Shown in pieces: positions 32,100 through 48,294 of a stretch of DNA of 64,000 nucleotides. Within the stretch, counting starts at the first letter, position 1; the number at the start of each line of letters is the position of its first letter. Origin of the DNA: Synechococcus sp. Cruz-7E5 (lineage in GTDB: Bacteria; Cyanobacteriota; Cyanobacteriia; PCC-6307; Cyanobiaceae); contig NZ_JAGQCE010000004.1 in the NCBI RefSeq assembly GCF_024345995.1, positions 1 through 64,000 of the forward strand, given 5' to 3'. Below the pieces are notes generated by a model. The model had not been told where the DNA came from. It ran no database searches and was given only the letters and a program-made list of their open reading frames with translations. Both the position numbers and the translations under genes were made by a program.

Positions 32100-32176
32100 A
32101 ACTTTGTTGGCTAAGGGATCCAGAGATGCACCAGACCAAGGAAAAGAACCAGTAGTACTACGGATTGAAGGCGTAC

Positions 32177-32202
32177 AACTGCTTCGCGGAAGCCAAGTGC
32201 TA
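32177..32202 (+). repeat. 26-nt small mobile repeat, copy 1
   Basis: A 26-nt unit with core GCTTCGCGGAAGCC, inserted in the transposase between the codons for KAY and DKDSGL. The same unit, 24 of 26 bases identical, occurs in reverse orientation at 54200-54225 in another transposase copy at a different site. Confidence 0.75.
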
Positions 32203-32893
32203 CTCCTTGGACAAGGATTCTGGCCTTATCCATTCGGTGGTGACCACTGTTGCCAGCGTTCATCGCCTCACCCCATCTGCCGACCTGCTGCATGGAAATG
32301 AGCAGGTGGTTTTCGGCGACGCCGGCCACCAGGGAATCGCTATGAGATCAGCGATGGTTGGGAAATCAATGGAGTTTCGGGTGGCGATACGACCAGGAAT
32401 ACGCCGTTCCCTGCCCAATAACCCAGACGGGAAGCTGCAGGATCTGATCGAGGCGGCGAAGGCGCATATCCGTGCCAAGGTCGAGCACCCCATCCGTGTA
32501 ATCAAGCAGCAGTACTGCTTCCAAGTGACCCGGCTGTGGGGGATGGCCAAGAACCGCTGCATGGTCAACGTTCTGGCTGCGCTAACAAACCTGTTCCTGG
32601 CCTGGCGTCACCTGCTGGCGACATCTTGACCAGGAGAGACGTGTGCCCAACTGGGTCCAGCTACAGGTCCAATACATCCAGAACTGGCCAGAGAATCACC
32701 TTGAATCGATGCAAAGCAGGCTCTGAGGCTAGCAGGATACTAAGTCTCCCAATTTCAGGTCTCGTCAGCTGCTAAAACCGCTGTCGCCCATAGCTTCCCT
32801 AGCGACTTTGCTCGTAAATCCAGCCTTGCCAGAAAATGGCCATTCCAGTGACATCGGCGCTACCCACCGGGGGCAGGATCCGGAGCGAGGGCA

Positions 32894-33889
32894 TCAGCCC
32901 TGGAGGATGGAACGGGCCCGCTCTACGAGCCGCAGCCCTCTGGACCAGATGGATTCCGGTGGACTCATTTCCCCTCGCAGTGCCCAGTGCTGCCGGCGTG
33001 GCACCCGCAGCATGGCTGCGGCACGACCGATCTGCTCGAGAGGGTCCCCCAGCCCTAAGGCAACGAAGCAGGCACCGGCCTGCTGGATCGCCGCCAGGGA
33101 GCCCCAGCGACGGGCGATCTCGATGAGCTGATCGGGGTCGCACTGGCCGCGATCGCCTTGTTCCAGGCTGGCCGCCAGCTCCAGTACCCAGCGAAGTTGT
33201 CCGGGGGGGTGCCAGCGCCAGTTGGAGCCAATCAGCTCGGCCAGCAGGGAGGCCGGTTCCGGCACCAGCAGCCCGTCGAAGGGGGCGGAGGCCGCCAGGG
33301 TCAGAGGGTGCAAGTTCCGCCGGCCATGGGGATGATCCAAGACGAGCCGCAACTGACCACTGCGCAGCGCCTCCCTGGCTGGCCTTGCCGTGACGGCGGA
33401 AAGGAGCTCTTCACTGCTGAACGACGTTGCGGCGGCGGGCGACCTGAGCTGCAGGGATCGCACGGGGAACGGATGTCCATGGAAGGTCGTACCCCGGAGG
33501 GCCACCGCCGCGTCACCGCAGACGATCAGAGGCTTGCCGCGCCGCCTCGCCAGGGAGGCGATTCCCTCGAGCGCCTGCAGCGCCAACTGGGACAGAAACC
33601 AGCTCCGCCGGAACCAACCGCGGCTGCGACTGGCAAGCGTTCCAGCTGGCACCTCATCGCCGAACCGCAGGACGGCGAAGGCCGCCAGTTCATGGCTGGC
33701 CGCATCTTCGTGGTCGAAGTCACACTGCCGCACCCACTTTTGCCAGGCAGGCCGAGCGATCTCCGGACTGGCCAGGCAGGCCTTCAGCAACAGAGCGTGG
33801 CGGGGTTCCGGCGCCGGTCCATGCCAGAGATGGAGTCTGTCTGGATCGAACACTGACCTTCGGCAGCTGTCGCAGTCGTTCGGCAACAT
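32894..33889 (-). CDS. Nucleotidyltransferase-like protein (NTP_transf_5), catalytic motif degenerate
   Basis: A 331-residue protein paralogous to its divergent neighbour at 33912: both carry LLLKACLASP/LLLKACLAPP followed by a W, an ED-AAS segment, and a similar overall order. The family (NTP_transf_5) normally has a KG..L motif and a DxD on the next strand. Here the corresponding region reads KPLIVCGDAAVALRGTTFHGHPFPVRSLQL, with no DxD, so nucleotidyl transfer is doubtful. The two starts face each other across only 22 bp. I infer a catalytically dead partner or a diverging copy. NTP_transf_5 genes are known beside PqqD, HPr-kinase-like and asparagine-synthase genes, which also occur in this island. 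Confidence 0.7.
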   Translation of the reverse strand: MLPNDCDSCRRSVFDPDRLHLWHGPAPEPRHALLLKACLASPEIARPAWQKWVRQCDFDHEDAASHELAAFAVLRFGDEVPAGTLASRSRGWFRRSWFLSQLALQALEGIASLARRRGKPLIVCGDAAVALRGTTFHGHPFPVRSLQLRSPAAATSFSSEELLSAVTARPAREALRSGQLRLVLDHPHGRRNLHPLTLAASAPFDGLLVPEPASLLAELIGSNWRWHPPGQLRWVLELAASLEQGDRGQCDPDQLIEIARRWGSLAAIQQAGACFVALGLGDPLEQIGRAAAMLRVPRRQHWALRGEMSPPESIWSRGLRLVERARSILQG

Positions 33890-33911
33890 AGGGACCCTGG
33901 CCCAGGCCGCG

Positions 33912-35123
33912 ATGGGATCGGGTTGGTTACCGACGGATCGTCAGTTCCTGCTGCTGAAGGCCTGCCTGGCTCCACCACACGAAGCCCATGACGCCCTCGT
34001 CGCCTGGCGCGGCGGCGGTGATGAGGCGGAGGATGCAGCATCACGTCGACTCCTTCCCCTGCTGTGGAAGCGCTGGGCGGGGATGGGGATGCAGCGACTC
34101 CCATCCGCGTGGAAAGACGACTACCTGCGCAGCTGGAGAAAGGGTCAGCTCGCAGCGGCCCGGGCCAACCGGCTGGGGCAGCTGTTCGCCGGCGACGCCA
34201 TCCCCACGCTGCTCATCAAGGGGCTTCCTCTGGCCCTGGAGGCCTATGCCGATCTGGGCAACCGTCCGATGGCCGACATCGACCTGGTTGTTCCCTTTGA
34301 GCAGGCGCGCACCGCCGTGGAGCGATTGCTGCAAGCGGGCTGGCAGCCCGCCCCTACGCCCCTGAAGGGTGGAGGGAAGGACTCAGCCACACTGTCTTCC
34401 GCCTGGCTCAGCCAGCCCCGTCGGCTGGAGCGGTTCGACCCCTGCTACCTGCGGGTACGCCACAGCCACGGCTTCCATCATCCCGATGGCACGGAGATGG
34501 ACCTGCACTGGTTCCTGTTCGAGGGGCAGTGCGACCCTGGCACCGACGACGGCCCCTGGCAGCGGGCCTCTGGCCTCGCTTCACGCTGCCGCGTCCGGCA
34601 GGTTCAGCCCCTTGCCACGTTGCAGAGCCTGGGGAGCGCCGACCATCTGCTGCTGCTCCTGGCCCATGGTGCGCGCTGGAACCCGGTCCCCCCGATCCGC
34701 TGGATCCCCGATGCCGTCCTCCTGCTGCGGGCCACCACGGCTGTCGACTGGAGCTGCTTCGTGGCCGAAGCGGTGCGTCGTGACCTGGCCCCCACAGCGC
34801 TCGTGATGCTTCGCTGGCTGGAGCAAAGGTTCCAGGTGGGATTGCCAGCCGAGGTGTTGCGCGAACTGACAGGGGCGGCAAACTCACGGCAGGTGCGCCG
34901 GCTGGTCGCTGCAGCCGGAGAGCGACCGGGCTGGGGCAGTGGGCTGGAGGAGCTGCGCTACCTGCGCCGTCGCCACCGGCGATTGCGCCGCGAAGCTGCA
35001 GGAGGGCAGGTCGTGCCTCCCTTCCCCCGTTTCGTCTGCGACATCCTCGGGGCACCGGACACCGGCAGCGTCATCAGCTACGCCAGATCTGAGCTGACCC
35101 GTCGCTGGGACCTGCAGGGATGA
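33912..35123 (+). CDS. Nucleotidyltransferase family protein (NTP_transf_5)
   Basis: A 403-residue protein. The nucleotidyltransferase core shows TLLIKGLPLALEAYADLGNRPMADIDLVV with KG near residue 103 and the metal-binding Asp122/Asp124 (DID). A segment typical of the family, DLHWFLFEG, and the C-terminal LLLLAHGARWNPVPPIRWIPDAVLLL follow. The substrate is unknown; relatives occur in ribosomal-peptide (lasso-type) and polysaccharide clusters. I chose ATG at 33912 because it aligns with the start of the paralogue at 33889; the open frame extends much further upstream but antisense to that gene. The gene ends 25 bp from a convergent GT gene. Confidence 0.82.
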   Translation: MGSGWLPTDRQFLLLKACLAPPHEAHDALVAWRGGGDEAEDAASRRLLPLLWKRWAGMGMQRLPSAWKDDYLRSWRKGQLAAARANRLGQLFAGDAIPTLLIKGLPLALEAYADLGNRPMADIDLVVPFEQARTAVERLLQAGWQPAPTPLKGGGKDSATLSSAWLSQPRRLERFDPCYLRVRHSHGFHHPDGTEMDLHWFLFEGQCDPGTDDGPWQRASGLASRCRVRQVQPLATLQSLGSADHLLLLLAHGARWNPVPPIRWIPDAVLLLRATTAVDWSCFVAEAVRRDLAPTALVMLRWLEQRFQVGLPAEVLRELTGAANSRQVRRLVAAAGERPGWGSGLEELRYLRRRHRRLRREAAGGQVVPPFPRFVCDILGAPDTGSVISYARSELTRRWDLQG

Positions 35124-35147
35124 GGGTGCCAAAGTGGCGCCGCCCGC

Positions 35148-35966
35148 TCAGCGCCGCCCGCGTTGCAGCCGACGGGCGATCGCTTCGGCGGCGACCCGCG
35201 TCAGCCCGGCGTTGATCAGTCGCGGGTTGATGAAGATCCGCCCACCGTCGTCACGGATGCGCCGATGCAGCGACACGTGCTCACAGACGGGCCGGCCATC
35301 GCCGTCGATCCCTTCGTAGCGACCGGCCACCAGAGCCGAGCGCCTGTAGATCGCCAGCCCCCCGAAGGCGGAGTCAACCGCGATCCATTCCGAATCCACA
35401 GGGATCTGGATCATCCGCGCATGGACGGCCTGCTCGAGGGCCTCCGAGCGGGGCAGGCCCGCGGCGCAAAGTGAGTGGAAGCGCTGCCAGCAATCATCCG
35501 GGCACCATTCGGGATGACGCAGAGCCCAGATGTCGTAGTACAGGCTTTTCTGATTCGCCGTACAGACGGTCCAGTCGTCCCGGATCCAGGCACTTCGCCA
35601 CGACTCCTGGCTGAAGCCTTGCCCCATGCCATCGAAGTCGACGACGACGACGCTGTCCACATCGTCATGGCGTGGCGAACGGAGTTCGTCCAGGTACTGG
35701 TTGCGGCAATGGGCCAGCCGTTCCGTGCGTTCAGGCCAACGCCGTCGCAGTTGACCCAGCGCCTTGAACCGGAAGGATTCCATCTCCTCCGCCAGAGTCG
35801 CCAGCATGGCGAGGGTGTCGTCCTCGCTGTCGGACTCCACGAGGAACCAGCGCAGCTCCGGCACATCGATCAGTGCCTCCTTCAGTCGGTCGATATCGGA
35901 GCGGAGCGTGCCGGCGCCATCGCGAACGCAGCCGGTGACCAGGACAACCCGAGCAGGAGGAACCAT
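35148..35966 (-). CDS. GT-A-like glycosyltransferase (capsule-type)
   Basis: A 272-residue protein starting MVPPARVVLVTGCVRDG. RWFLVESDSEDDTLAML, VVVVDFDGMGQGF (acidic motif near 128) and YYDIWALRHPEWCPDDCW resemble capsule-associated mannosyltransferase-like GT-A proteins. The C-terminal part has GGLAIYRRSALVAGRYEG and CEHVSLHRRIRDDGGRIFINPRLINAG. I chose ATG at 35966 since the 39 residues that could precede it overlap the upstream gene and do not resemble the family. It lies 11 bp after the GT-D-like gene on the same strand, so the two form a pair. The sugar is unknown. Confidence 0.75.
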   Translation of the reverse strand: MVPPARVVLVTGCVRDGAGTLRSDIDRLKEALIDVPELRWFLVESDSEDDTLAMLATLAEEMESFRFKALGQLRRRWPERTERLAHCRNQYLDELRSPRHDDVDSVVVVDFDGMGQGFSQESWRSAWIRDDWTVCTANQKSLYYDIWALRHPEWCPDDCWQRFHSLCAAGLPRSEALEQAVHARMIQIPVDSEWIAVDSAFGGLAIYRRSALVAGRYEGIDGDGRPVCEHVSLHRRIRDDGGRIFINPRLINAGLTRVAAEAIARRLQRGRR

Positions 35967-35977
35967 GGCTGCTTCGT

Positions 35978-36898
35978 TCACCAATACGCCCCCCCATCGG
36001 CCACCCTGGCCAGGTCGGTGCCGGGAGGGCGATAGGCGACAGGCATTCGGATCCAGGCGTCGTTGAAATGGCGGTGGCGCCACTCGGATTCCGCCAGCCA
36101 GCGCTTGCCATGGACGCCGAAGAGAACCTGGAGATGGCCGCCCAGTGAAAGGCCAATGCAGCCCAGCTTCCCGGCAGCGGCAGCGAGAGGGATGCCAAGG
36201 CCACCGGCTGCGATCAGGGCGATGTCGAAGGAGGTGGCGGCCATCCGCTCTTCCAGGTGGCGGAACAGGGCCATCGAATCAGGAAAGAGCCGGTGCGTGT
36301 CCGGGCTGTACCCATACGGAAACTCAATCGCCAAAACAGCGGCGGGGTTGAACCAGCGCTTGCCCGTGCGGGCCCATACCGCTTCGAACACCTCGCGCCG
36401 AGCCCGCTCACGCAGTAGCTCGGCGCAGGAAGAGATCAGCAGGAGGCGGCGTCCCTCCAGCAACGGCAAGTAACAGAGATCCTCTCGGGCCGGGGACGAA
36501 CGATCGGGCTCCTGGTGGCGGTAGTCGACCCACGGCATCGTGAGGCCGAGGGCCCCACGCAGCACGGCCATACGTGCGAGCAGATCTGGGAACACGCCCA
36601 GGCAGTTGAGCTGGGAGAGGCTATCAACGAAGAAATCGTTGAAGCGGAGGTAGAACTCTGTGCTCGCCGGGAATAACGCCGACTGCTGCAAGGAGTGGTA
36701 ATGGAGGTTCGGCTCCATCAGCTTGAGCAGGCGCGGATCGACACCTGGGCGTGACGCTGCGATCGAGAAGTTCAGCCGCTGGATCTCCGAAATCCCGAGC
36801 TTGCCGCTGGCGAAGCCCACACCGTCGGTAAGCGCCCGCTCAATGGCGCGCCGGAAAAATCCAGGGGACTCCAACCTGGAACCTGGTCCGGTCTTCAT
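35978..36898 (-). CDS. GT-D-fold-like glycosyltransferase candidate
   Basis: A 306-residue soluble protein without membrane segments. The C-terminal segment FDIALIAAGGLGIPLAAAAGKLGCIGLSLGGHLQVLFGVHGKRW resembles the nucleotide-binding end of GT-D-fold transferases (DUF1792-like), and RRLLLISSCAELLRERARREVFEAV fits the middle of that fold. The N-terminus has GVGFASGKLGISEIQRLNF. The pairing with the downstream GT-A-like gene supports a glycan role. The family call is by pattern and moderate. Confidence 0.6.
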   Translation of the reverse strand: MKTGPGSRLESPGFFRRAIERALTDGVGFASGKLGISEIQRLNFSIAASRPGVDPRLLKLMEPNLHYHSLQQSALFPASTEFYLRFNDFFVDSLSQLNCLGVFPDLLARMAVLRGALGLTMPWVDYRHQEPDRSSPAREDLCYLPLLEGRRLLLISSCAELLRERARREVFEAVWARTGKRWFNPAAVLAIEFPYGYSPDTHRLFPDSMALFRHLEERMAATSFDIALIAAGGLGIPLAAAAGKLGCIGLSLGGHLQVLFGVHGKRWLAESEWRHRHFNDAWIRMPVAYRPPGTDLARVADGGAYW

Positions 36899-37009
36899 CC
36901 CTGGTCATGCGGTGACATGGGCTCAGCAAAGAAGGGGAGTCAGCAGCATGATCTGGTCACGGCAAACTTGGCGAGTCCCAGGCAGAACCACCGTGCTGAG
37001 GACATTCCC

Positions 37010-38593
37010 ATGAGGAGCAGGCCCCTTCCAGCTCGGCGGCACCAGAGCGGGGTCTTCACAATCCTGCTCCTGCTGATCGTGTTGACAGGGAGCTGCCTGC
37101 GGTTTGCCTACCTGCCGGACAAACCTCTGTGGTTTGACGAAGGTTTCACCCGCCTGCGGATTTCCGGCCGAGACGAACATGACGAGGCCATTTCCAGCCT
37201 GTTCACAGGTCGGCCGATCCCACCTACGGCCTTCGAACCGTTTCAGGAAGCTCAGCCGGGGTCACCGTTGATTGGAACGGTGCGGGGCCTTGCCAGAAAG
37301 GAACCCCAGCATCCCCCGCTCTATTTCCTGCTGGCAAGGTCGGCGTCGTTGCTGATGGGGAACAGCCTGCTCGGCATGCGGTCGGTGTCCGCTCTCTGCG
37401 GAGCGCTGACGGTTCCAGCCATGGTGCTGCTGGCACTGGAAGCCTATGGCGATCGGGCGATCGCGCTCCTGGCGGGAGCGCTTGCGGCGGTTTCGCCCCT
37501 CTGGATCCGGTTCGCCCAGGACGGCCGCCCCTACAGCCTCTGGCTGCTGCTGGTGATCCTTGCCCATGTGGCCTATCTGCGCCTGGTCCGGCAGCCCGGC
37601 CGAACCGCCGCTCTCTCATACGGGCTGGTGCTGGGCCTTGCCCTGCTCACCCAGCTCCTTACCGTCCTCACGCTTTTCTCCCATGCACTGCACCTGGTCC
37701 TGAGCGGAGCCGCCTGGCGGGCGTTGATCCTGCGTTCCTACCTGGTGGCGACGACCTTGGCGCTTCTGGTCGCCTCGCCCTGGGCGGTGGTGCTGGCGGT
37801 GAAACATTCCACCGCCGTGGCCACCACACGCCACCTGCTTCGCCCCATGCCCACGGTGGCGCTGCTGGGCCACGGGCTCGACAACCTGAACACCCTGTTC
37901 ACGGCCTGGCCCCGGTTCCCAGGCCCGCTCGGACCTGTCGTTTCCGTCCTGCTTCTGTTGGGCGTCGCGGCTGTTCTGTGGGCCGCGCTGCGGCGGCGGC
38001 ACAACGGCCAGGGCCTCTTCCTGGTGCTGATCTCCCTGGTACCCGTGCTGCCTTTCGTTATCGCCGACCTGCTGCTCGGGGGTCAGCGATCAGTGCAGGT
38101 GAAGTATCTGCTGCCTGGATCGATCGGAGTTTTTCTGGCTCTGGCCGGCTGGCTGGTCCTTGCGGCACGGGGGCGGATCGTGCGGCTGCTGGCCGCCGGT
38201 CTGCTGAGTCTCGGGTTCGTATCCAGTCTGTTTCTGCTTCGGGCGCCCACCTGGTGGGGCCTGTCTCAAGTGGACAACGACCTGGGCCGCCTGCTGCGAG
38301 AGGCCCATCAGCCACGCATCGTGGCGGACGGGTCCTTCGCTGTGCTGGCCTTGCTCAGCCACCAGCTACGCGGCCATGGCTCGTTTCTTTTAACCCGTTC
38401 CCCGCAGACGCTCCGCCTGCCGCCTCACGAGGGCGAGACCTTCCTTTATCAGCCATCGGCTGAGCTGAAAGAGACGATCACCAAGAGGATGGGTTGCACG
38501 CTGCAGCGCAGGTACGCCGAGCGGCGGGAAGGAGGATCCCTCTACGAGCTCTTTGAGATCCTCGACTGTCCCAGACGTTCGGCCCCTCTGTGA
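37010..38593 (+). CDS. GT39/ArnT-like polytopic glycosyltransferase
   Basis: A 527-residue membrane protein with about eleven helices, starting with VFTILLLLIVLTGSCLRFAY. The first outer loop has LWFDEGFTRL near residue 41, with the catalytic-type acidic residues of PMT/ArnT-like (GT-C) enzymes, and KEPQHPPLYFLLAR near 101 is the second family signature. Such enzymes transfer sugar from a polyprenyl-phosphate donor on the outer side of the membrane. I chose ATG at 37010 because the 31 upstream codons are not hydrophobic or conserved-looking. Its TGA overlaps the GTG of the next gene (GTGA at 38590-38593). Confidence 0.86.
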   Translation: MRSRPLPARRHQSGVFTILLLLIVLTGSCLRFAYLPDKPLWFDEGFTRLRISGRDEHDEAISSLFTGRPIPPTAFEPFQEAQPGSPLIGTVRGLARKEPQHPPLYFLLARSASLLMGNSLLGMRSVSALCGALTVPAMVLLALEAYGDRAIALLAGALAAVSPLWIRFAQDGRPYSLWLLLVILAHVAYLRLVRQPGRTAALSYGLVLGLALLTQLLTVLTLFSHALHLVLSGAAWRALILRSYLVATTLALLVASPWAVVLAVKHSTAVATTRHLLRPMPTVALLGHGLDNLNTLFTAWPRFPGPLGPVVSVLLLLGVAAVLWAALRRRHNGQGLFLVLISLVPVLPFVIADLLLGGQRSVQVKYLLPGSIGVFLALAGWLVLAARGRIVRLLAAGLLSLGFVSSLFLLRAPTWWGLSQVDNDLGRLLREAHQPRIVADGSFAVLALLSHQLRGHGSFLLTRSPQTLRLPPHEGETFLYQPSAELKETITKRMGCTLQRRYAERREGGSLYELFEILDCPRRSAPL

Positions 38594-39888: not shown

Positions 39889-39913
39889 ACCTGGAGCCTG
39901 AGGGAGCCGCCCT

Positions 39914-40858
39914 TCAGGCGCGCGGACCGGATGGGTGGAGGTGGTGGCGGATCGAGCGGAACAGGGGGGCGAGGAACTCCGGGCCGCTGTAGGCCTGGGC
40001 TTCAACGCAGCGATCCCGTTCTGCATCGCGCCGCACGGCCGGCGGATGCACCAACGGAAACGGCAGGGCGTGCGCCTCCAGCTGCGCCCCGGGGCTCGAT
40101 GCCAGGGCGGTGTGGGTGGCATCCTCCCGGAAGCCCAGGTTGCGCACCAGGTTCACCGCCGGGTGGATGCAGAGCCCATCGCGGCGCCAGCAGTTGAAGG
40201 TCCAGGCGTAGTCCCAGTTCTCCGCCGTGCGGTGGTTGGTACGGAAGTGGTAGCACCAGTAGCGCCGCGCCTGGGGCGTTTCCAGCACGGTGTCCAGCCA
40301 GCCGGCTGCGGCGCGCGCGGGCCATTGGCCCATGGCCATGTCCTGGTGCCGCCAGGCACGCTTCCAGGTGGCCCAGCCCCAGAGCAGCTGGTACCGGGAA
40401 AAGGCATAGCTGCCTCCCTCCGGCTGGATCCCGACGCCGAGGTTGCTGCCGGCGATCGCCATCACCCGCTCCGTGTCGGCGTAGCGCTCCAGCAGCTCCG
40501 CGCAGAAACTGAAGAAGCTCGGATCGGGAAGGCAGTCGTCCTCCAGCACGATCACGCGTTCATGGCTGCGGAAGACGTGCCGCATGCCCAGATCCAGGCT
40601 GGCGGCGATGCCGAGGTTCGTGGCTGAAAAAAGCCTCTCGACCCTGCAGGGCCAGTCGATGCGCCCCAACTCCCGGCGGGCCGCCTGGCAGAGTCTCCCC
40701 TCGCCGGGGACATCGCCGCGAGGGCCGTCAGCGACGACCACCAGGTGGGTCGGCCTCAGCAGGCGGAGCCTGTCCAGAATCCTTCGGCTGGTGTCAGGCC
40801 GCCGGAACAGCAGCAACAGCACAGGGATCGCAAAGGCTGGCGGGTTGGCCAGGGTCAT
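39914..40858 (-). CDS. EDDCLP-type glycosyltransferase (nucleotide-diphospho-sugar transferase fold)
   Basis: A 314-residue GT-A-like protein: IPVLLLLFRRPDTSRRILDRL, LVVVADGPRG, SERVIVLEDDCLPDPSFFSFCAELLERYAD with the acidic EDD near residue 107, then WGWATWKRAWRHQD and a C-terminal ATHTA motif. It is clearly paralogous to the protein at 42635-43693 (same motif order and spacing). It is the last gene of a seven-gene overlapping operon; its ATG overlaps the upstream stop as ATGA (40855-40858). Confidence 0.85.
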   Translation of the reverse strand: MTLANPPAFAIPVLLLLFRRPDTSRRILDRLRLLRPTHLVVVADGPRGDVPGEGRLCQAARRELGRIDWPCRVERLFSATNLGIAASLDLGMRHVFRSHERVIVLEDDCLPDPSFFSFCAELLERYADTERVMAIAGSNLGVGIQPEGGSYAFSRYQLLWGWATWKRAWRHQDMAMGQWPARAAAGWLDTVLETPQARRYWCYHFRTNHRTAENWDYAWTFNCWRRDGLCIHPAVNLVRNLGFREDATHTALASSPGAQLEAHALPFPLVHPPAVRRDAERDRCVEAQAYSGPEFLAPLFRSIRHHLHPSGPRA

Positions 40859-41559
40859 GGGCGGTGCCGGGCCCGTTCCCGATCAAGCAGGCGCTTCAGG
40901 CTGCGGAGGCGTGCGGCATGCAGGTGCGAAGGCGAGAACCCCTGCTCCAGGGGCTTGCGGACATAGGTCAGGACGACGGCTTCGACCCTGCGCACCACGG
41001 CCCCTTCCGCGCGCAGACGGATCCAGAGATCGACGTCTTCGCCGCTACGCAGGGCCGGATCAAAGCCCCCGATCCGCAGCAGGGCACTGCGGCGGAACAG
41101 GGCCGCGCCCACATTGAAGGAATGACGCGGGGCGGACTGTGCGGCGAGCCCCGCTTCCCGTGGCCAGGCGTCGACCAATCGCCCCTGCACCACATCAGGT
41201 GGATCGGGGGCAAGGAAAGGAGCCTGAAGCAGCTCCAGGGCCCGCGTGCTCCAGACGTCATCGGCGTCGAGAAACCCCACCAGATCCCCGCGCACCCGCG
41301 CCAGGCCGTCATTGCGGGCCGCGGCGGGGCCACCGTTCTCACGACGAAGCAGCTCGATGGCGCCGAGCTCCAGGCCAGGGGCAGCGACGAGGTCATCGCC
41401 TGAGCCGTCATCAACCACCAGGATCTCGTGCGGCCTCACCGTCTGGTTTCGGACCGAGGCCAGTGCCCTGCCGAGAGTGGCGGCCGCTTGATAAGCCGGA
41501 ATGACCACGCTGATCGTGGGGCCTTCGGCGCGACTGGCCTTCCCGCCCGGACGCTTCAC
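40855..41559 (-). CDS. Glycosyltransferase family 2 (GT2), GTG start
   Basis: A 234-residue GT2: ISVVIPAYQAAATLGRALASVRNQ, ILVVDDGSGDD, GGPAAARNDGLARVRGDLVGFLDADDVWSTR with the DxD near residue 97, and FRRSALLRIGGFDPALRSGEDVDLWIRL with the ED motif. I chose GTG at 41559 because it overlaps the stop of the upstream HPrK-like gene (GTGA) and places the fold about 14 codons in. The open frame extends upstream antisense to other genes but does not resemble a protein. It overlaps the next gene by ATGA. Confidence 0.9.
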   Translation of the reverse strand: MKRPGGKASRAEGPTISVVIPAYQAAATLGRALASVRNQTVRPHEILVVDDGSGDDLVAAPGLELGAIELLRRENGGPAAARNDGLARVRGDLVGFLDADDVWSTRALELLQAPFLAPDPPDVVQGRLVDAWPREAGLAAQSAPRHSFNVGAALFRRSALLRIGGFDPALRSGEDVDLWIRLRAEGAVVRRVEAVVLTYVRKPLEQGFSPSHLHAARLRSLKRLLDRERARHRP

Positions 41560-42638
41560 CGGTTCTCCTCCAGCCAGGCGGCGAGGAGGGGGGGGATGGC
41601 GGCGGGTTCCGCGCCCGTGTGCAGCAGGAAGCAGGGAAGCTGCCGCACCAGCTGGCCCAGGAGCCGGAAGGCCTCGCGCGCCGTGCCGGGCAGCTGGGCG
41701 ACGGCGCTGGGTGCGGCGGCAGCCAGGGCGGCCGAGGCGCTCAGAGGTTCCAGGCGAGCCGGTCCCTCCGCGCCGACCTGGGGGATCAGCACGGCCTTGA
41801 GCGGAAACCCATCGCCAAGCTGTTGCGGAAACGCTGCGGCCAGCTGCAGGAGCAGCTTGTCGCCCGGCTGCGGCGAGGGATTCACCACGCAGCCCGCCAG
41901 CGCTGGGAACCGGTGCAGATCCGCCAAGGTCTTGAGCTTGGCGGACCCATAGAGGCCATGGGCTCGCGGCGGCTCGCCCGCTGTCACCAGGCTGTAATCG
42001 TCGCCGGCGTAGCGCAGCCCCGCACAGAGGGCGAGCAGGGCTGTGGTGGATTTGCCGCGCCCGCCGGCACCGGCCACGAGCAGGCCTCCCGCCGCAGTGC
42101 CCACCGCGGCGGCATGGAGCAGCGCTCCGCCGCGCCCGGCGATCCACCAGGAGAGCAGCCGCAACAGGGGCGCCGCCTGTTCGTGGATGCGCAGACGCTC
42201 CGCATCCTCGATCCAGAAAAAGCCCTGGCCAGCGGCCCCATCCAGCAGCTGAAGGGTGTGGGGCCAGAGGTTGAACGAACAGCGGATCCCTTCCCTGTTG
42301 CCCTCGGGGAGTTCGCCATGGCAAGGAAAGCGGTCGGTGACGGCACCGCGCAGCCAGGCGGGGGGAGAGGGCGGGGCGGGCCAACCGGATCGGCCCGAAT
42401 CCCAGAGATACAGGTGGAGATCTGCAGCGGGAGAGGCCTCGTTCGCGGCGAAGGCGGGCAGGGATCGATGCTGCAGGGAGGCGGTCAGCAGCGGCTCCAG
42501 GGCCGGGCTGCCGATGTGCAGCTGGATTCGCTGGTCGGCGATCCGGAAGGAGCGCTGGGGCCAGGGGCCGGCCTCGACCTCCATGGCGGCCTGGAGAGCG
42601 CGCACATGCTCGACGTAGGCCCGGGCGCCACTGCTCAA
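41556..42638 (-). CDS. HPr serine kinase-like (HprK-related) protein
   Basis: A protein of about 360 residues whose C-terminal half has the HPr-kinase core: LLVAGAGGRGKSTTALLALCAGLRYAGDDYSLV, i.e. a P-loop near residue 197 followed by the DD motif near 213. The N-terminal part (FRIADQRIQLHIGSPALEPLLTASL) lacks the HPr-kinase N-domain of Gram-positive regulators, and no PTS genes are here. HprK-related kinases occur in lasso-peptide clusters (where they phosphorylate the peptide) and in exopolysaccharide clusters with PqqD proteins. A PqqD gene heads this same operon. I chose TTG at 42638, which overlaps the upstream stop as TTGA; GTG at 42605 and ATG at 42584 are alternatives. Confidence 0.82.
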   Translation of the reverse strand: MSSGARAYVEHVRALQAAMEVEAGPWPQRSFRIADQRIQLHIGSPALEPLLTASLQHRSLPAFAANEASPAADLHLYLWDSGRSGWPAPPSPPAWLRGAVTDRFPCHGELPEGNREGIRCSFNLWPHTLQLLDGAAGQGFFWIEDAERLRIHEQAAPLLRLLSWWIAGRGGALLHAAAVGTAAGGLLVAGAGGRGKSTTALLALCAGLRYAGDDYSLVTAGEPPRAHGLYGSAKLKTLADLHRFPALAGCVVNPSPQPGDKLLLQLAAAFPQQLGDGFPLKAVLIPQVGAEGPARLEPLSASAALAAAAPSAVAQLPGTAREAFRLLGQLVRQLPCFLLHTGAEPAAIPPLLAAWLEENR

Positions 42639-43693
42639 GGGGTCCTGCCCGGGCGTTGTGCCCTCGACCGCAGGCTGGAGAGCGCCTCTGTGGCACGAGC
42701 CTCGATCCCGAGGCGCTGATCGGCGCTGGCGGGCAGGGCCGCGGCCTTGAACGCCCGCGCCAGGAGCAGGGCCGCCATCGCGCGTCCCTCCGTCTGAAGG
42801 CTGTCGATGCGACGCAGCACATCCTCGGCTGCTGGCCGCCCCACCCGCCAGTCGGCGACCCGACGGTCGTACGCCCGGTCCGGGGCAACAGCGGCGGGTC
42901 CCTGGAACGGGGCTGGCAGGGAGAAGAGAGCCACGGCGGGCTGGCTCGCGGCCAGCCCCACCGTGTGGGTGGCCTGGGGATCGATGCCGATGTTGCTGAT
43001 CAGATTGCGGGCCGGCACCACGGCCAGGCCGCCCTCGCACAGCTGGCTCAGCGTCCAGGCGCCATCCCAGGTGTCAACCCTGCCGCCGGCCGTGGCCCGC
43101 CAGAGCGCCAACCAGAGATCCACGAGCTCAGGCAGGCCGGTGCCGGCGATCAGCTCCTCCCTGAGCCCGGGGCGGGCCAGGTTGTGCATGGTGAAATCCA
43201 CGCGCTGCCAGGCTCGCCGCCAGGTGGCCCAGCCCCAGTGACAGCCGAAGGCCGAGAAGTGATAACTCTGCTGCGGATAGCGCCAGCTCTCCAGCGGATT
43301 GCTGCCGTTGACCATCACCACCCGTGGATCGCTGCGGAAGCGCTCCAGCAGTTCCCGGCAGAACGGAAAGAAGGAGGCAGCCGGAAGGCAGTCATCCTCC
43401 AGGATGATCGCCTCCTCCACCTGCTCGAACACCGCGTTCAGGCCACTGATCACACGGGCGGCCAGGCCCAGGTGGGTGGCGGCGAAGTGGCGGTGCACAA
43501 GGCAGGGCCAATCGATCGTGTCGATCAGAGCCCTGGTGCGGGCGCAGAGGGCGTCGTCCTCCGGATGCGTGGGGCGGGGTGCATCGGCAAGGACGAACAG
43601 CTGGGCCGGCCGGACCTGGCGCACCACCTCCAGCACCCGGGCCGTCTTGGCGGGGCGGCGGAACAGGATCAGCACCACGGCGGGTTCAGCCAT
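42635..43693 (-). CDS. EDDCLP-type glycosyltransferase, paralogue of 39914-40858
   Basis: A 352-residue protein: AVVLILFRRPAKTARVLEVV, LFVLADAPRPTHPEDDALC, EEAIILEDDCLPAASFFPFCRELLERF with the EDD near residue 97, WGWATWRRAWQRVD and the ATHTVG motif. Order and wording match the neighbour at 39914 closely, so one arose from the other by duplication. It overlaps the upstream GT4 by 8 bp and the downstream HPrK-like gene by 4 bp (TTGA). The C-terminal extension of about 50 residues (ADWRVGRPAAEDVLRRIDSL) is not in the paralogue. Confidence 0.85.
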   Translation of the reverse strand: MAEPAVVLILFRRPAKTARVLEVVRQVRPAQLFVLADAPRPTHPEDDALCARTRALIDTIDWPCLVHRHFAATHLGLAARVISGLNAVFEQVEEAIILEDDCLPAASFFPFCRELLERFRSDPRVVMVNGSNPLESWRYPQQSYHFSAFGCHWGWATWRRAWQRVDFTMHNLARPGLREELIAGTGLPELVDLWLALWRATAGGRVDTWDGAWTLSQLCEGGLAVVPARNLISNIGIDPQATHTVGLAASQPAVALFSLPAPFQGPAAVAPDRAYDRRVADWRVGRPAAEDVLRRIDSLQTEGRAMAALLLARAFKAAALPASADQRLGIEARATEALSSLRSRAQRPGRTP

Positions 43694-45044
43694 CGCCTTT
43701 TCCGAGCCGGAGCGCTTCGGTCCGTTCACGGGCGGCGGCCTCGAAGCGGCCCGCCGCCTCCAGCACAAGACTGCTCCAGTGCCGCAGCCAGGGATCTTGA
43801 GGGTAGGCATTGCGGAACTGGATGATGCCCCCCTCCCCCTGGGAGAGCAGGAAGGAGGCGGCGGCGATCTGGCGGTCCGCCTCCGGGTCGTTGCCGCCCA
43901 TCGATCGGAGGAACGGCGCCTCACCCGCCTCCAGCATCCGGGCGAACCGCTCGCCGGCGGTGAGCCCGGGTGCGAAGCGGTGCTGCTCCCGTTTCGGCAG
44001 GTCCATCAAGCGGCCGTAGAGGGCCGCGAAGGCCGCGGCCGCCCGGCGGGGATCGAAGGCCTGGCGGACATAGCGGCGGGCGGCCTCGCCGAGCCGGCGG
44101 CGCTCAGCCGGATCCCGGGCCAGCTGGTCCAGCGCCGTTGTGTACTCCTCCGGGCTGCAGACCACCCTGCCGGTGACCCCGTCTTCCACGAGGTCCGGAA
44201 CGCCTCCATAGGGAAAGACCACAGGCGGAAGGCCAACCGCCATCGCTTCCTGCAGGCTCTTCTCGCTGGTGGCGTAGGTGTCGCGGCAGAGGGGATAGCC
44301 GAAGATGTCGAGGCTTTCGAGAACCGTGCGGATGTTCTCCTGGAAGCCGAGGAACGAAAACCGGCCGGAGGCCCCGAGCGCCTCCGCCTGCCGGCGCAGT
44401 TCCGCTTCTCCCCCACCGGCCCCAACCACGGAAAAGCTGAGCTCGGCGCTGGTGGTGGCCGCGCTCATCGCCACGAAGCCAGGATGCATCTTGCTGAAGT
44501 TGGTGGTGCCGAGATAGCCCGCCCGGATCCCGGCATGGCTGGCGGACCGGAAGCCCTGCACCCGATCGAAGTCGGCGAGACCGGGGATCAGCTCAACCCG
44601 GCCCTGTTTGCACAGGCGCTGAAGGGCGGGCAGGCGCAAGGTGCTGGAGGCCGTCGCCACGCAGAGATCGGCGCAGGCCGCCAGATCTTCCGTGATGGTC
44701 TGCGGGGGGGACCCACCGGCGACCATGAACCACAGGATGCGGCGGTGGGGAGGCAGGCGGCGTCCGAGCAGATCCAGGAAGGCTGGATTGTTCCAGTAAT
44801 GCAGCTGAACGATGTCGGCCTGGGCGATCTCCTCGGCCAGCTCCGCTGCGTCCACGGCCCTGCGCACCTGCAGACCGGCCCTGCGTGCCATCAGCAGGGC
44901 GTGGGGATAGAGCTCCGCCTGAAGAGTCACGACGCGGTGCTGCCAGGGGGCGCCGGCCTCCCGCTGCAGGGCCGCCAGGCTGATCAGGGAGCGGGTGGGG
45001 CCAGCGGCACTGAGCCGATCGAGGATGTGAAGCACCACGGCCAT
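43686..45044 (-). CDS. Glycosyltransferase family 4 (GT4)
   Basis: A 452-residue GT-B enzyme. The N-domain has VLHILDRLSAAGPTRSLISLAAL and DIVQLHYWNNPAFLDLL. The donor domain has AGYLGTTNFSKMHPGFV, LSFSVVGAGGGEAELRRQA, FLGFQENIRTVLESLDIFGYPL and SEKSLQEAMAVGLPPVVFPYGGVPDLV, the GT4 E-x7-E region. The last about 90 residues form a helical extension with a TPR-like stretch (PWLRHWSSLVLEAAGRFEAAARERTEAL). It shares one base with its upstream neighbour (TGATG at 45044) and overlaps its downstream neighbour by 8 bp. Confidence 0.9.
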   Translation of the reverse strand: MAVVLHILDRLSAAGPTRSLISLAALQREAGAPWQHRVVTLQAELYPHALLMARRAGLQVRRAVDAAELAEEIAQADIVQLHYWNNPAFLDLLGRRLPPHRRILWFMVAGGSPPQTITEDLAACADLCVATASSTLRLPALQRLCKQGRVELIPGLADFDRVQGFRSASHAGIRAGYLGTTNFSKMHPGFVAMSAATTSAELSFSVVGAGGGEAELRRQAEALGASGRFSFLGFQENIRTVLESLDIFGYPLCRDTYATSEKSLQEAMAVGLPPVVFPYGGVPDLVEDGVTGRVVCSPEEYTTALDQLARDPAERRRLGEAARRYVRQAFDPRRAAAAFAALYGRLMDLPKREQHRFAPGLTAGERFARMLEAGEAPFLRSMGGNDPEADRQIAAASFLLSQGEGGIIQFRNAYPQDPWLRHWSSLVLEAAGRFEAAARERTEALRLGKGDG

Positions 45045-45793
45045 CAGCTTCCACCGTTGCCTGACTGCGGCAACCGGCGCCGAGCCAAGGAGGCGGCGGC
45101 GATGCGGAACATCTCACTGCGATTGATGGCGCTGCGGTTCGAAAGGTTTGTGTCGTGCAGACGCTTCTCGAGCAGGACATCCTCCAGGAGCGCCGATGGG
45201 ATGCCGGCATCGCGGGCACGGGTGAACCAGGCGGCATCGCAGCCGATCGCATAGGCCGGATCAAAGCCCCCCAGCGCGTCGAACAGCGAGCGCCTGGCCA
45301 CAAGGCCGCTTGGCGTGACCGCAGGAAAGCGACGGGAGGCGCCGGCGCGGTTGGCGGGAGGGACGATCGGCTCCCCATGGGCGGAGATGAAGCGCAGATG
45401 GCAGAGGCCATACCCGAGCCGGGGCTGCTGCTCCAACGTGGCCAGCTGCAGGGAGAGCATGCCGGGCAGCCAGCGATCGTCGTGGTCGAGGAAGGCCACA
45501 TAGGGATGACGGGCCAGCGCCAGTCCCTGGTTGCGGGCGTTGGCCAGGCCCATCCCCTCCTGCTGCACCACCGTCACCCCAGGAAAGGATTCGGCTACCG
45601 AAACGGTGGAATCGCTGGAGTGGCCATCCACCACCAGCACCTGGGCCGGGGTGTGGGACTGACGGCAGAGGCTCTCCAGCGCTTCCGCCAGGTAGGCAGC
45701 ACCGTTGCGCACCACCAGGATCACACTCACCGCGGGAGCGGAGGCCAGCGGAGGTGTCACAGAGCTCGGTCCTGGGGTGAGGCACTCGGCCAT
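45044..45793 (-). CDS. Glycosyltransferase family 2 (GT2)
   Basis: A 249-residue GT2: VSVILVVRNGAAYLAEALESLCRQ, VLVVDGHSSDSTV, GLANARNQGLALARHPYVAFLDHDDRWLPG (acidic DHDD motif near residue 104), ARRSLFDALGGFDPAYAIGCDAAWFTR. The residue after GGFDP... is a CD rather than the common ED. It overlaps the pqqD-like gene upstream by 37 bp, an unusually long same-strand overlap, and the GT4 downstream by 1 bp. Confidence 0.9.
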   Translation of the reverse strand: MAECLTPGPSSVTPPLASAPAVSVILVVRNGAAYLAEALESLCRQSHTPAQVLVVDGHSSDSTVSVAESFPGVTVVQQEGMGLANARNQGLALARHPYVAFLDHDDRWLPGMLSLQLATLEQQPRLGYGLCHLRFISAHGEPIVPPANRAGASRRFPAVTPSGLVARRSLFDALGGFDPAYAIGCDAAWFTRARDAGIPSALLEDVLLEKRLHDTNLSNRSAINRSEMFRIAAASLARRRLPQSGNGGS

Positions 45794-46215
45794 CCCTGTT
45801 CATCCACGTCATGGATCGGGTCGAGCATCAGCAGGTCGGCCATGTTGGTGTGAATGGTCAGCTCCGGCGTCGTGAAGGGGCACCCAGTGCGATCCGATAG
45901 TTTGAACGGCTCGATGGATGCCGGGGAGGAATCCGCCGCAACCAGAATCTCCTCGGCCAGCAGGGAAGCAAGCAAAGCTTCCACCGCTTCTCCTGCCAGC
46001 TCAGGTGCCACGCCGTAGGCGCTGCTAAGCGCCTTGACGATCTCCTGGGACGGAACGCCTACTTCCAAGCCGAGCCATACATCTCTGCCCACATCCACGA
46101 GGTTGTAGTAGGTGCCTGTTTCAAGATGAATGATGATCACCTCATCCTCGATGGTTTCATGGGCCACCTTGTCGGCATTGATTGTTAGAGCCGCGTGTGA
46201 TTGGGTCGTTGTCAT
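45757..46215 (-). CDS. PqqD-like peptide-binding chaperone (RRE-type)
   Basis: A 152-residue protein whose first about 95 residues match the PqqD family: VAHETIEDEVIIIHLETGTYYNLVDVGRDVWLGLEVG, then SQEIVKALSSAYGV and VEALLASLLAEEILVA. PqqD domains bind leader peptides of ribosomally made modified peptides, or occur beside HprK-related kinases in glycan clusters. The C-terminal 55 residues (DRTGCPFTTPELTIHTNMADLLMLDPIHDVDEQGWP) are an extension I do not recognise. It is the first gene of a seven-gene minus-strand operon and is divergent from asnB across 240 bp. Confidence 0.85.
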   Translation of the reverse strand: MTTTQSHAALTINADKVAHETIEDEVIIIHLETGTYYNLVDVGRDVWLGLEVGVPSQEIVKALSSAYGVAPELAGEAVEALLASLLAEEILVAADSSPASIEPFKLSDRTGCPFTTPELTIHTNMADLLMLDPIHDVDEQGWPSASPQDRAL

Positions 46216-46348
46216 AAAGCTGCGTTCACTGGCTAGGAATTTGCAAGGCCGAAACTACCTTGTCATGATTGCGCCCGAGTGTAACCACTTCTCGCCGATT
46301 CGTCTGCACAGTTGCGTCGGTAAGACATGGACAGCCCTTTTGCCGCGT

Positions 46349-46365
46349 CGCTCACGCAGTGAGCG
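46349..46365. promoter_or_regulatory. Hairpin in the pqqD-asnB intergenic region
   Basis: CGCTCAC-GCA-GTGAGCG forms a perfect 7-bp stem with a 3-nt loop, 90 bp before the asnB start and 134 bp before pqqD. It lies in the only region that can hold the promoters of both divergent transcripts. No T-run follows, so it is not an intrinsic terminator; it could be an operator or leader-RNA structure, or a small dispersed repeat. Confidence 0.35.
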
Positions 46366-46455
46366 GGGCAATGCCGCCCGCGCTTTCCGTAGAGATCATG
46401 ATGCTGTTCCTGATGCCTCAACCACCTCTACCATGCATCCAGTTGACACGTCCTG

Positions 46456-48294
46456 ATGTGCGGGATCGCCGGAGTTATCAGGCCTGATGCCGCTGCGTAT
46501 GATCATCACCAGCTGGTGAATGAATTCCAGCGAAGCCTTAGTCACCGCGGGCCGGACGGAAGGGGAGACTGGCAGGAGACGAAAACCTGCAGCGTCAGTT
46601 TTGTTCATACCCTGCTGGCGATTCGAGATCCCTCTCCACTCGCTGGTCAGCCAATGACATCCAGCTGTGGGCGTTATGTGCTGGTCTTCAATGGCGAGCT
46701 GTACAACCTAGAGGAGGTCGTCAGGTTATTGCCTCCACGGCGCCGGCGTCTTCGCACCCGAAGTGATAGTGAGGTGTTGCTGGAATTCCTTGCAGAACGG
46801 TGGGTTGATGCCCTTCCAAGTCTGCGGGGAATGTACGCCTTCGCGCTCTGGGACCGTGAGCGCGAACGTTGCTTGCTCGCACGTGATCCCTTTGGAATCA
46901 AGCCGTTGTATGTGCGACACGGTGAGCAGGGTGAGATCTGGTTCGCTTCAGAAGTGCGTGCCCTGCTGCGGGTGTCCACCAGGCGTGGGGAACTGGATGT
47001 GGCGGCGCTTGCCTCCTTCCTCAGCTGGGGGTTCGTTCCCGAGCCATTCAGCCTGGTGCAGGGGATTGAAAGCCTGCCGGCCGGATGTTTCGGGATCTGG
47101 GAAGAGGGGCGATGGAGCCAGGGACTGTTCCAGCCGCCACCCTTCCCTGCCGAAGCGGTGGTCGCGGATGGGGATGCGGTAGAGCTGGTTCGGGATGCGT
47201 TGCGATGCTCCACCCGGGCTCACCTGACCGATGACCCCTCCGTAGGACTTTGCCTCTCTGGCGGGCGCGACTCCGCGACCCTGATGGCTCTCTCGCCCTT
47301 CCCCCTCCCCTGCTTCACACTGGGCTTCGCGGAGCCCGGCTTTGATGAATCCCGCCTGGCTTCCAGACTCGCCGGCGCCTGGCAGAGGCCCCATCACCTT
47401 CGGCACATCGGGGCACACCGGGCCGCCCTGGAGCTCCATTCCTATCTGGCGGCGATGGATCAGCCGAGCACCGATGGCTTCAACACGTACTGCCTGGCTC
47501 GGTTGATCCGGGAGAGCGGGGTCAGGGTGGTTCTCAGTGGCATCGGCGGCGATGAACTCTTCGGGGGCTACCCCACCTTCGAGCGCATCCCGCACCTGCT
47601 GCGCCTCCATGCTGAACTAGGGCACCGCAGCACCACCCTCGCCCTCTTGCATGGGCGATGCCCTGGAGCCGAATCGCAGAGGTTGGCGGGCTTTCTTGGG
47701 GGCGCTGCCTCGATCGATTCAGCCTATCGATGCCTGCGGGGCTTGTTCGCGCCCCCAGAAGTGCAGGCTCTGCTGGAGAGCTGGGGCTTGGGGGAAGCGG
47801 CCGCTACGGCGTCGCTGTCTGTGGAGCCACACACGCAGTGCAACATTCTTGAACATAAACCAGCTCCCCATGTCTGCGAGCGGATCGCCTGCTTGGAGAG
47901 CAGCCACTACATGGCCGGTCAGCTGCTCCGCGACGCTGACGTGTTCGCGATGGCGCACGGCGTGGAGCTCCGCCTACCGATGGTCGATCCGGCGCTGGTT
48001 GCGGTGGTCGCACGCCTGCCCTGGGAGCAGCGATTCGGTCCGGGAAAGGAGCTTCTCCGCAGAGCTGTTCCTGAGCTGGATCCGCTGCTGGGCAACTGCG
48101 CCAAGCGGACTTTCTCCTTTCCTTTCCAGCGTTGGCTCGATTCCCCGGATGGAGGCTTCGCCGAGACCTTCAGCAGATTGCCCTCCCTTCCCGTTCCCGA
48201 AACGGTTGACACCCATCCCTGGCAGCGACGCTGGGCCCTGATGACGCTGGGCTGGTGGATGTCCACCCACCTGGACTTTGAGCTTTCGATCTAA
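46456..48294 (+). CDS. asnB: Asparagine synthase (glutamine-hydrolysing) family protein
   Basis: A 612-residue AsnB-type protein. It begins MCGIAGVI with the catalytic Cys2 of the glutaminase domain, followed by SHRGPDG, FNGELYN and RDPFGIKPLY. The synthase domain has the ATP-pyrophosphate loop CLSGGRDSATLM (SGGxDS near residue 267) and SGIGGDELFGGYPTF. Both active sites look intact. Such proteins make asparagine, but copies in glycan clusters amidate uronic acids, and relatives act as lasso-peptide cyclases. It is divergent from pqqD. Its stop TAA lies in a CTAA that borders an IS5 element, so its original 3' end may have been altered. The start shares a base with the stop of a 63-codon frame (TGATG). 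Confidence 0.9.
   Translation: MCGIAGVIRPDAAAYDHHQLVNEFQRSLSHRGPDGRGDWQETKTCSVSFVHTLLAIRDPSPLAGQPMTSSCGRYVLVFNGELYNLEEVVRLLPPRRRRLRTRSDSEVLLEFLAERWVDALPSLRGMYAFALWDRERERCLLARDPFGIKPLYVRHGEQGEIWFASEVRALLRVSTRRGELDVAALASFLSWGFVPEPFSLVQGIESLPAGCFGIWEEGRWSQGLFQPPPFPAEAVVADGDAVELVRDALRCSTRAHLTDDPSVGLCLSGGRDSATLMALSPFPLPCFTLGFAEPGFDESRLASRLAGAWQRPHHLRHIGAHRAALELHSYLAAMDQPSTDGFNTYCLARLIRESGVRVVLSGIGGDELFGGYPTFERIPHLLRLHAELGHRSTTLALLHGRCPGAESQRLAGFLGGAASIDSAYRCLRGLFAPPEVQALLESWGLGEAAATASLSVEPHTQCNILEHKPAPHVCERIACLESSHYMAGQLLRDADVFAMAHGVELRLPMVDPALVAVVARLPWEQRFGPGKELLRRAVPELDPLLGNCAKRTFSFPFQRWLDSPDGGFAETFSRLPSLPVPETVDTHPWQRRWALMTLGWWMSTHLDFELSI

Follow-up and report, generated by a model that had tools for sequence, protein, structure and literature searches.

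A PqqD-like protein with a leader-like C-terminal tail, near HprK-like kinase and NTP_transf_5 genes, in a glycan locus of Synechococcus sp. Cruz-7E5

What kind of system is formed by genes for a PqqD-like protein, an HprK-like kinase, an asparagine synthase (AsnB) and two NTP_transf_5 (NTP5) proteins that lie among glycosyltransferases? The question is raised by a 64,000-nucleotide stretch of Synechococcus sp. Cruz-7E5 (contig NZ_JAGQCE010000004.1, positions 1 to 64,000; hereafter the window). A first-pass annotation had named these genes and an ABC exporter, likened them to a lasso peptide cluster lacking its leader peptidase, and suggested a decoration system using a bound carrier peptide or an HPr-like partner. 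The identifications of PqqD, AsnB and the exporter stand (Table 1), and the module is a relative of RRE/HprK/NTP-transferase systems rather than a lasso cluster. Its PqqD protein ends in a conserved tail that begins with a leader-like motif; a leader motif carried in cis on an RRE adaptor may not have been described previously.

A conserved tail on the PqqD protein

Across the genome (31 contigs, 3.16 Mb), PF05402 matched only the PqqD gene at E ≤ 0.001, and the Pfam match spans only residues 25-91 of the 152-residue product. Foldseek placed the protein closest to the TbiB1-leader complexes 5v1v (E 2.5e-6) and 5v1u, followed by TfuB1 (6jx3), and the only solved chains that matched the PqqD profile at E ≤ 0.01 in hmmsearch were TbiB1, PbaB1, TfuB1 and LppB, all of which are lasso- or LPP-type RREs solved with leaders. 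By both searches the window protein has the winged-helix RRE fold. Following the RRE, its homologs share a second conserved block at the C-terminus, with the consensus FxxPxLxKYTDMxDLLxLDPIHEVDxxGWP.

Tails were recruited by scanning a genome collection with a pattern of ten tail positions, with FxxP, D124, M125 and GWP lying outside the pattern. The scan gave 348 matches, 252 of them encoding a PqqD relative, and the best 80 loci were analysed. These loci and seven further sequences make up the PqqD alignment (A2, 87 rows, three fusion proteins excluded), in which 80 of the 87 tails were recruited through the pattern; alignments A6 and A8 are selections of 24 and 34 rows. Mean pairwise identity was 0.381 in the RRE, 0.095 in the linker, 0.574 over residues 114-125 and 0.765 over residues 126-143, the conservation of the tail being partly ascertainment because ten of its positions belonged to the search pattern. 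Residues D132, P133 and W142 are invariant, and P117, D124, M125, L128, L129, L131, I134, H135, V137, D138, G141 and P143 are each kept in at least 90% of sequences. By record, the tail occurs in Cyanobacteria, Nitrospirota, Chloroflexi, Deltaproteobacteria, Acidobacteria, Bacteroidetes, Gemmatimonadetes, Gammaproteobacteria, Lentisphaerae and others. Hidden Markov models (HMMs) of the RRE and the tail both matched in all 80 loci, which also helped build the models. For relatives' loci, 18 PqqD places were found and two weak ones were left out. In a tree of the RRE domain (101 rows, 81 columns, bootstrap not settled), six tail-less rows fell in more than one place. Loci L056, L058 and L087 have a second W-P motif after GWP (GWPN...WPTRNPD or WPTRDPD). 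The tail of locus L118, from a genome of the host's class, is identical to that of locus L050, a cyanobacterial record.

The start of the tail resembles a known leader motif in sequence. As described in PMC13381572, RREs of lasso and LPP systems grip a leader of the form [Y/W]xxPx[L/V/I/F/A]; in the tail, position 114 is F, Y or W, 117 is P and 119 is mostly L, and its FxxPxL is similar to the YxxPxL gripped in those leaders. An AlphaFold model of the window protein (86 sequences) gave the block 111-120 a mean pLDDT of 93; residues 120-122 form a strand, residues 125-129 form a short helix (block pLDDT 73), and confidence is low from residue 131 onward (blocks 56, 52 and 45). The segment DPIHEVDxxGWP is conserved above the level of the RRE yet predicted to be disordered. 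In the model of a natural fusion protein (locus L025), made from another alignment, the L of YGPPVL is the first residue of a strand at 134-137 (blocks 85 and 87), and DPVHEVD..GWP is disordered (blocks 39 and 33). Alignment A7, used for folding, misplaces the last residues of some PqqD rows. The crystal structure of PbaB1 with its leader has leader residues -9 to -7, after L at -10, extending the beta sheet (PMC13381572), and the two predicted strands share this register. Residues were mapped by profile alignments and the pocket residues given in the same paper (window number = PbaB1 number minus 2). The second leader pocket (window Y37, L39, L81, L85 and I90) maps onto conserved columns, and the first only partly does so. 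The models thus predict that the tail docks in cis, in the leader cleft of its own RRE.

Co-occurrence and fusion with the kinase

Genes around the tail were counted in the 80 loci with HMMs built from the loci themselves. HprK was present in 68 loci, NTP5 in 60 and GT2 in 69 (67 with a match of at least 150 aa), while AsnB-like and B2-like genes occurred in one locus each; the profiles for these last two had 5 and 4 seeds, and each sole positive was itself a profile seed. The next recognised gene 3' of PqqD was HprK in 44 loci, NTP5 in 19, GT2 in eight, a full-length ABC gene in two and a short ABC match in two, with none in five. Of the 12 loci without HprK, three (L056, L088 and L113) have less than 3 kb of downstream sequence; the other nine are weighed below.

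The same association was seen in 386 genomes of the host phylum, surveyed with profiles built from the pattern-recruited loci. The tail profile found 32 places in 29 genomes and a kinase-only profile found 35 places in 31 genomes. All 29 tail genomes also have the kinase (Fisher p 1.2e-41, a value that overstates the case because related genomes are not independent), and the kinase lies within 6 kb of the tail at 31 of the 32 places, on the same strand at 30. Of the four kinase places left unpaired, one lies on a different contig of a genome with a tail, one is a weaker second copy, and the other two are the weakest matches. An iterative HprK profile drifted from 81 to 277 matches and was discarded, and glycosyltransferase matches of one hprk profile were not scored as kinases because that profile contains GT2 columns. 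The tail lay inside an RRE-bearing open reading frame (ORF) in all 30 loci examined, the window included; the remaining two of the 32 places are the PqqDs of loci L023 and L024, and there was no stand-alone tail among the 32. Together, these data support PqqD, HprK and NTP5 as a conserved set inside glycan loci. The first-pass annotation had expected the PqqD and HprK-like genes to recur with AsnB or NTP5 in relatives, and this is so for NTP5, strongly, and not for AsnB.

Natural fusions join the parts directly. In three loci of the host family, a single protein contains the RRE, the tail, a weak second RRE-like segment and HprK; the second segment had i-Evalues of 2.9e-5, 0.0019 and 0.013 (three-sequence search), and the model of one fusion has a second strand-and-helix domain at 167-235. 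Among RRE loci of the host family and one plasmid, the nine with a tail all have HprK and NTP5, one (the window) has AsnB and none has B2. In twenty genomes of 1.6-2.5 Mb from one family of the phylum (loci L124-L143), an RRE bears a tail resembling EYNDAQELLLADPIHEVKEETGWTPEK. The tail-RRE gene comes after a kinase ORF in 19 of the 20, 13 of these ORFs also scoring for RRE, and is followed by GT2 in 17 within the 1.5 kb covered. On a plasmid of Crinalium epipsammum (locus L020, NC_019735.1, 5896-17248), a tail-PqqD gene lies with two NTP5 genes and genes for an HPr kinase, glycosyltransferases, FkbM, SMP-30 and ABC proteins. PLSDB types this plasmid as mobilizable, and the module may therefore move between hosts.

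The ORF of the window kinase (41556-43040, minus strand) had no Pfam match at E ≤ 0.01 and matched NCBIfam models only weakly (HprK_rel_B 30.7 bits and HprK_rel_A 28.3 bits, cut-offs 200). As called, the ORF is over-long and overlaps the upstream glycosyltransferase ORF; nearer in-frame starts are at 42638, 42605 and 42584. The kinase alignment (A4) holds 65 of the 79 HprK-cluster members, with PqqD fusions, truncated, over-long and doubtful ORFs excluded, and its profile matches the solved HPr kinases 1jb1 (E 1e-5), 2qmh and 1ko7. The window protein keeps the six invariant residues of the alignment (H, G, G, K, D and K) and has the P-loop, upstream His and Asp-Asp of the HPr kinase superfamily, which upholds the HprK-like call. 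HPr as its partner was rejected, as a profile search found no PF00381 gene anywhere in the genome.

Of the two NTP5 genes named by the first-pass annotation, the one at 33912 (NTP5a) was confirmed directly. The other, at 32894 (NTP5b), had no Pfam or NCBIfam match at E ≤ 0.01 and is identifiable as NTP5 only through its relatives (8e-19 to the locus-built HMM). Across 99 aligned NTP5 proteins, drawn from all loci whether or not they have a tail, the DxD motif is kept in 70 and lost in 29. Of the 23 loci with at least two NTP5 genes, 22 combine one or more intact copies with one or more degenerate copies; 20 of the 22 are cyanobacterial by record or origin. The window fits this pattern, which suggests from the sequences that an active enzyme is paired with a pseudo-enzyme partner.

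Known systems, proposed function and alternatives

Among described systems, the linear polyphosphorylated peptides (LPP) of Bacillota come closest to the window. In PMC13381572, LPP loci have a discrete RRE, an HprK-like kinase, an NTP transferase and an MsbA-like exporter, as does the window with its ABC gene at a distance; both also lie in capsule or glycosyltransferase loci, have a YxxP-type leader motif and lack a macrolactam cyclase. The same paper gives LPP a separate precursor with YxxPxVLxHQxIxFETxxS and a variable C-terminus, and an SpI peptidase, whereas here the motif is fused to the RRE inside PqqD and is followed by a different, near-invariant sequence. The hosts differ as well, being cyanobacteria and other phyla for the tail system. 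Paeninodin and pseudomycoidin lasso systems share with it a B1-type RRE, an HPr-kinase homolog K, a nucleotidyltransferase N, an exporter D and sometimes a sulfotransferase (PMC8498205); unlike them, the tail system has no recognised precursor A, cyclase C or peptidase B2. That paper reports that the precursor peptides of paeninodin-type clusters are phosphorylated by HprK homologs, and that the pseudomycoidin nucleotidyltransferase adds one or two hexoses onto the phosphate. In the Bsf lasso system of Bradymonas, the RRE BsfB1 strongly boosts the kinase BsfK (PMC10368454); its YxxPxL leader motif and RRE-stimulated kinase are points of likeness, and its separate precursor, B2 and cyclase are points of difference.

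Two further systems also pair PqqD-like and HprK-like proteins. For HPr-rel-A (TIGR04352 HprK_rel_A and TIGR04353 PqqD_rel_X), the window kinase falls far under the cut-off of 200 bits given above and the window PqqD has no TIGR04353 match; PqqD_rel_X matches four of the 87 tail PqqDs (E ≤ 0.001), the window not among them. The SynChlorMet cassette has HprK-like ScmC and PqqD-like ScmD of weak similarity, but the window kinase scores 20.7 bits against a cut-off of 125; ScmD is matched by 45 of the 87 PqqDs (E ≤ 0.001), again without the window. A search of the open-licence literature found no description of the tail or the module, none of PqqD and HprK together, and nothing under SynChlorMet or HprK-related names, although absence from the literature is unproven.

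We propose, with a confidence poised midway between doubt and belief, that the window encodes a peptide-guided phospho-glycosylation module related to paeninodin and LPP tailoring, with the leader borne in cis by the RRE adaptor. Through FxxPxL, the tail would dock in the leader cleft of its own RRE, and docking would present TDMxDLLxLDPIHEVDxxGWP to the HprK-like kinase and then to the NTP_transf_5 and GT2 glycosyltransferases; the kinase and the sugar enzymes would in this way receive the near-invariant segment from the tail. NTP_transf_5 and GT2 would assemble a phosphate-sugar product, either on the tail or on a glycan positioned next to it, and the ABC exporter may move the product. We infer both this chemistry and the order of its steps. 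Within the proposal, the tail itself is somewhat favored as the kinase substrate, and a role solely as a handle falls just short of even likelihood. The earlier suggestion of a bound carrier peptide is close in spirit, since the peptide would be the C-terminal tail of PqqD itself; the guess of an HPr-like partner does not fit a genome without HPr. Known RREs are adaptors that grip a separate precursor, and here the adaptor bears its own grip sequence, while a segment conserved above the adaptor itself is expected of a fixed substrate or binding site and not of a variable natural product. The proposal would tie lasso and LPP HprK/NTP_transf_5 tailoring to glycan loci of cyanobacteria, Chloroflexota, Nitrospirota, Bacteroidetes and others, and for a kinase and nucleotidyltransferase family not yet characterised, the tail offers a directly testable candidate substrate. 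Peptide-guided chemistry of sugars or phosphates may be widespread and have been overlooked.

Several observations weigh against this proposal. No Ser or Thr is invariant in the tail: 75 of the 87 sequences have T or S at position 123 and the others E, D, A, V, R, N or Q; between position 120 and GWP, six of the 87 lack S/T altogether, and two lack it to the end. A Ser/Thr phospho-acceptor in every tail is thereby not supported; position 123 looks like a helix cap, and His135 or acidic tail residues are possible acceptors, if the tail is not only a handle. The window tail deviates from the consensus at 121, 122 and 124, and the tail of locus L023 is degenerate despite a kinase 5 kb off on the opposite strand. 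Nine of the 80 loci, all Chloroflexota by record and three of them covering less than 4 kb upstream, have a tail with no HprK within 7-10 kb downstream. NTP5 is absent from 20 of the 80, and an ABC protein of at least 450 aa is absent from 52, being present in 28, with 11 more loci having only shorter ABC ATP-binding matches. In the fusions the tail is internal and therefore not released as a free peptide, and since no leader peptidase is recognised, the product would stay attached. Finally, the docking site was read from prediction confidence and strand register only.

In a doubtful but serious rival, the tail is only a handle that docks the kinase and glycosyltransferases, and the target of kinase and NTP5 is a glycan linked to lipid or protein, giving a phosphorylated exopolysaccharide or surface glycan. 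A tail without an invariant Ser/Thr would suit it, as would the frequency of GT2 genes, the presence of a GT2 region on 12 of the 65 HprK proteins, the sulfotransferase, SDR, SMP-30 and methyltransferase neighbors of some loci, and the Foldseek result for the fusion model, where PEPCK, a small-molecule enzyme, ranked ahead of HPr kinases. A handle leaves unexplained the retention of a leader-type FxxPxL and the near-invariance far from the docking motif, and the characterised relatives act on peptides. We consider it unlikely that the tail is a reusable, covalently loaded carrier arm on which kinase, nucleotidyltransferase and glycosyltransferases assemble a phosphate-linked oligosaccharide that is passed on, the peptide never being released; if true, this would be a peptide-tethered route to glycans across many bacterial phyla. 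It seems quite unlikely that the tail is a gate, that is, a built-in competitor that fills the RRE cleft and gives way to a true precursor encoded elsewhere. The tail does mimic a leader, and lasso and LPP RREs bind a separate precursor (PMC13381572). No shared small ORF resembling a separate precursor, LPP-type or otherwise, or carrying the leader motif was found in the loci among ORFs of 24-130 aa free of overlap by longer ORFs, a limit that leaves the gate some room; in the window the scan covered 25-55 kb and shared small ORFs only. Small-ORF families in at least three loci proved to be pieces of glycosyltransferases or the reverse strands of these, local repeats, and one conserved protein of unrelated kind, and many motif matches confined to one locus are probably fortuitous. 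Invariance over DPIHEVDxxGWP is not required of a competitor, and the tail profile matched RRE proteins only in the 386 genomes, which is uninformative on precursors whose core differs.

A degraded or atypical lasso cluster, the likeness first seen in this locus, is very improbable. It would account for the match of 85 of the 87 PqqDs to the lasso model NF033536 (E ≤ 0.001) and for the AsnB adjoining PqqD in the window. The leader peptidase noted earlier as missing is indeed so: PF13471 had no matches in the genome at E ≤ 0.001, which refutes the lasso reading for this genome barring an unrecognised peptidase and precursor, and no protease family exceeded its Pfam cut-off among ten shared-neighbor representatives, for which no SpI-model search was made. 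The window AsnB reaches 133 bits where the cut-off for the cyanobacterial lasso cyclase is 525, over the general asparagine synthase cut-off and under those of lasso cyclases, so that it is not recognised as a macrolactam cyclase, and the PqqD scores 41.7 against a lasso PqqD cut-off of 80. Four tail-less loci of the host family (L028-L031), with PqqD, B2-like, AsnB, ABC and NTP5 genes, are probable lasso peptide loci. NTP5 is present in six of the seven tail-less loci, of which L032-L034 are neither of lasso nor of tail type; L028, L032 and L033 have weak HprK scores (~1e-8). With PF13471 absent and AsnB and B2 unconserved in tail loci, we rejected the lasso cluster.

The least probable reading, which we regard as practically negligible, is that these genes are neighbors by chance in an exopolysaccharide island of the ordinary kind. 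Islands of this type are mosaic and rich in genes, and PqqD and AsnB are both absent from all eight other genomes of the genus. The co-occurrence of tail and kinase over 386 genomes refutes this reading, and the RRE-tail-HprK and HprK-GT2 fusions also stand against it.

Gene layout and neighboring genes

The features of the window are listed in Table 1. The PqqD, three glycosyltransferase, HprK and two further glycosyltransferase genes form a minus-strand run without large gaps from 46215 to 39914, and to this extent the single coupled operon first proposed holds. It does not extend to AsnB, which is divergent from the run, to the NTP5 genes, which lie on opposite strands about 5-7 kb past it, or to the ABC exporter gene about 12 kb past it.

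Table 1. Features of the window around the PqqD gene
Feature	Coordinates	Strand	Basis
PqqD-plus-tail gene, 152 aa	45757..46215	-	PF05402 44.3 bits, cut-off 23.4
RRE (PqqD-fold) domain, residues 16-92	45940..46170	-	PF05402 over cut-off
Leader-like motif FTTPEL, residues 114-119	45859..45876	-	FxxPxL conserved in alignment
Near-invariant tail segment TNMADLLMLDPIHDVDEQGWP, residues 123-143	45787..45849	-	Pairwise identity
GT2 glycosyltransferase, overlaps PqqD gene end	45044..45793	-	PF00535; relatives 36-38% identical near tail-RRE genes in loci L021, L022, L025, L027
GT4-type glycosyltransferase (family name presumed)	43686..45044	-	Relatives 39-41% identical in loci L021, L027
Glycosyltransferase-like gene (GTcapA, our label), start uncertain	42635..43924	-	No Pfam match; relatives 36-43% identical in loci L021, L023, L027
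HprK-like kinase, start uncertain	41556..42638	-	P-loop, upstream His, Asp-Asp
GT2 glycosyltransferase	40855..41559	-	PF00535
Second GTcap-type glycosyltransferase-like gene	39914..40858	-	Similarity cluster shared with 42635-43924
NTP_transf_5, KG...DxD motif intact (NTP5a)	33912..35123	+	PF14907 112.3 bits
Degenerate NTP_transf_5, DxD lost (NTP5b)	32894..33889	-	38-40% identical relatives in loci L021, L024
MsbA/HepA-like ABC exporter, possible module member	25904..27802	-	Pfam/NCBIfam; 73.5% identical relative in locus L026
AsnB-type amidotransferase, neighbor	46456..48294	+	TIGR01536 317.7 bits, cut-off 267.1

AsnB is the only full-length PF00733 match in the genome, and a role as the core asparagine supply was ruled out by the eight congeners without AsnB. 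Among the loci examined, only the window has an AsnB directly adjoining a tail-PqqD gene; locus L111 has one about 8 kb off. AsnB is best seen as accessory because one of 80 tail loci and none of the eight congeners carry it, and it is probably not part of the module. Near the NTP5 genes, a 154-aa ORF at 32165-32629 is, by its look, presumably a transposase remnant. A defense system was also considered and rejected, as PADLOC gave no match for five window proteins.

Four Chloroflexota loci with a tail-RRE and no HprK (L066, L068, L085 and L096) adjoin ABC transporter genes, and L085 also encodes a 913-aa protein with AMP-binding, carrier and acyltransferase domains. Sulfotransferase-like genes lie near the tail-RRE genes of loci L050, L064, L068, L080, L089, L092 and L094, of which only that of L094 was Pfam-checked; PMC8498205 reports a putative sulfotransferase from some lasso clusters as well.

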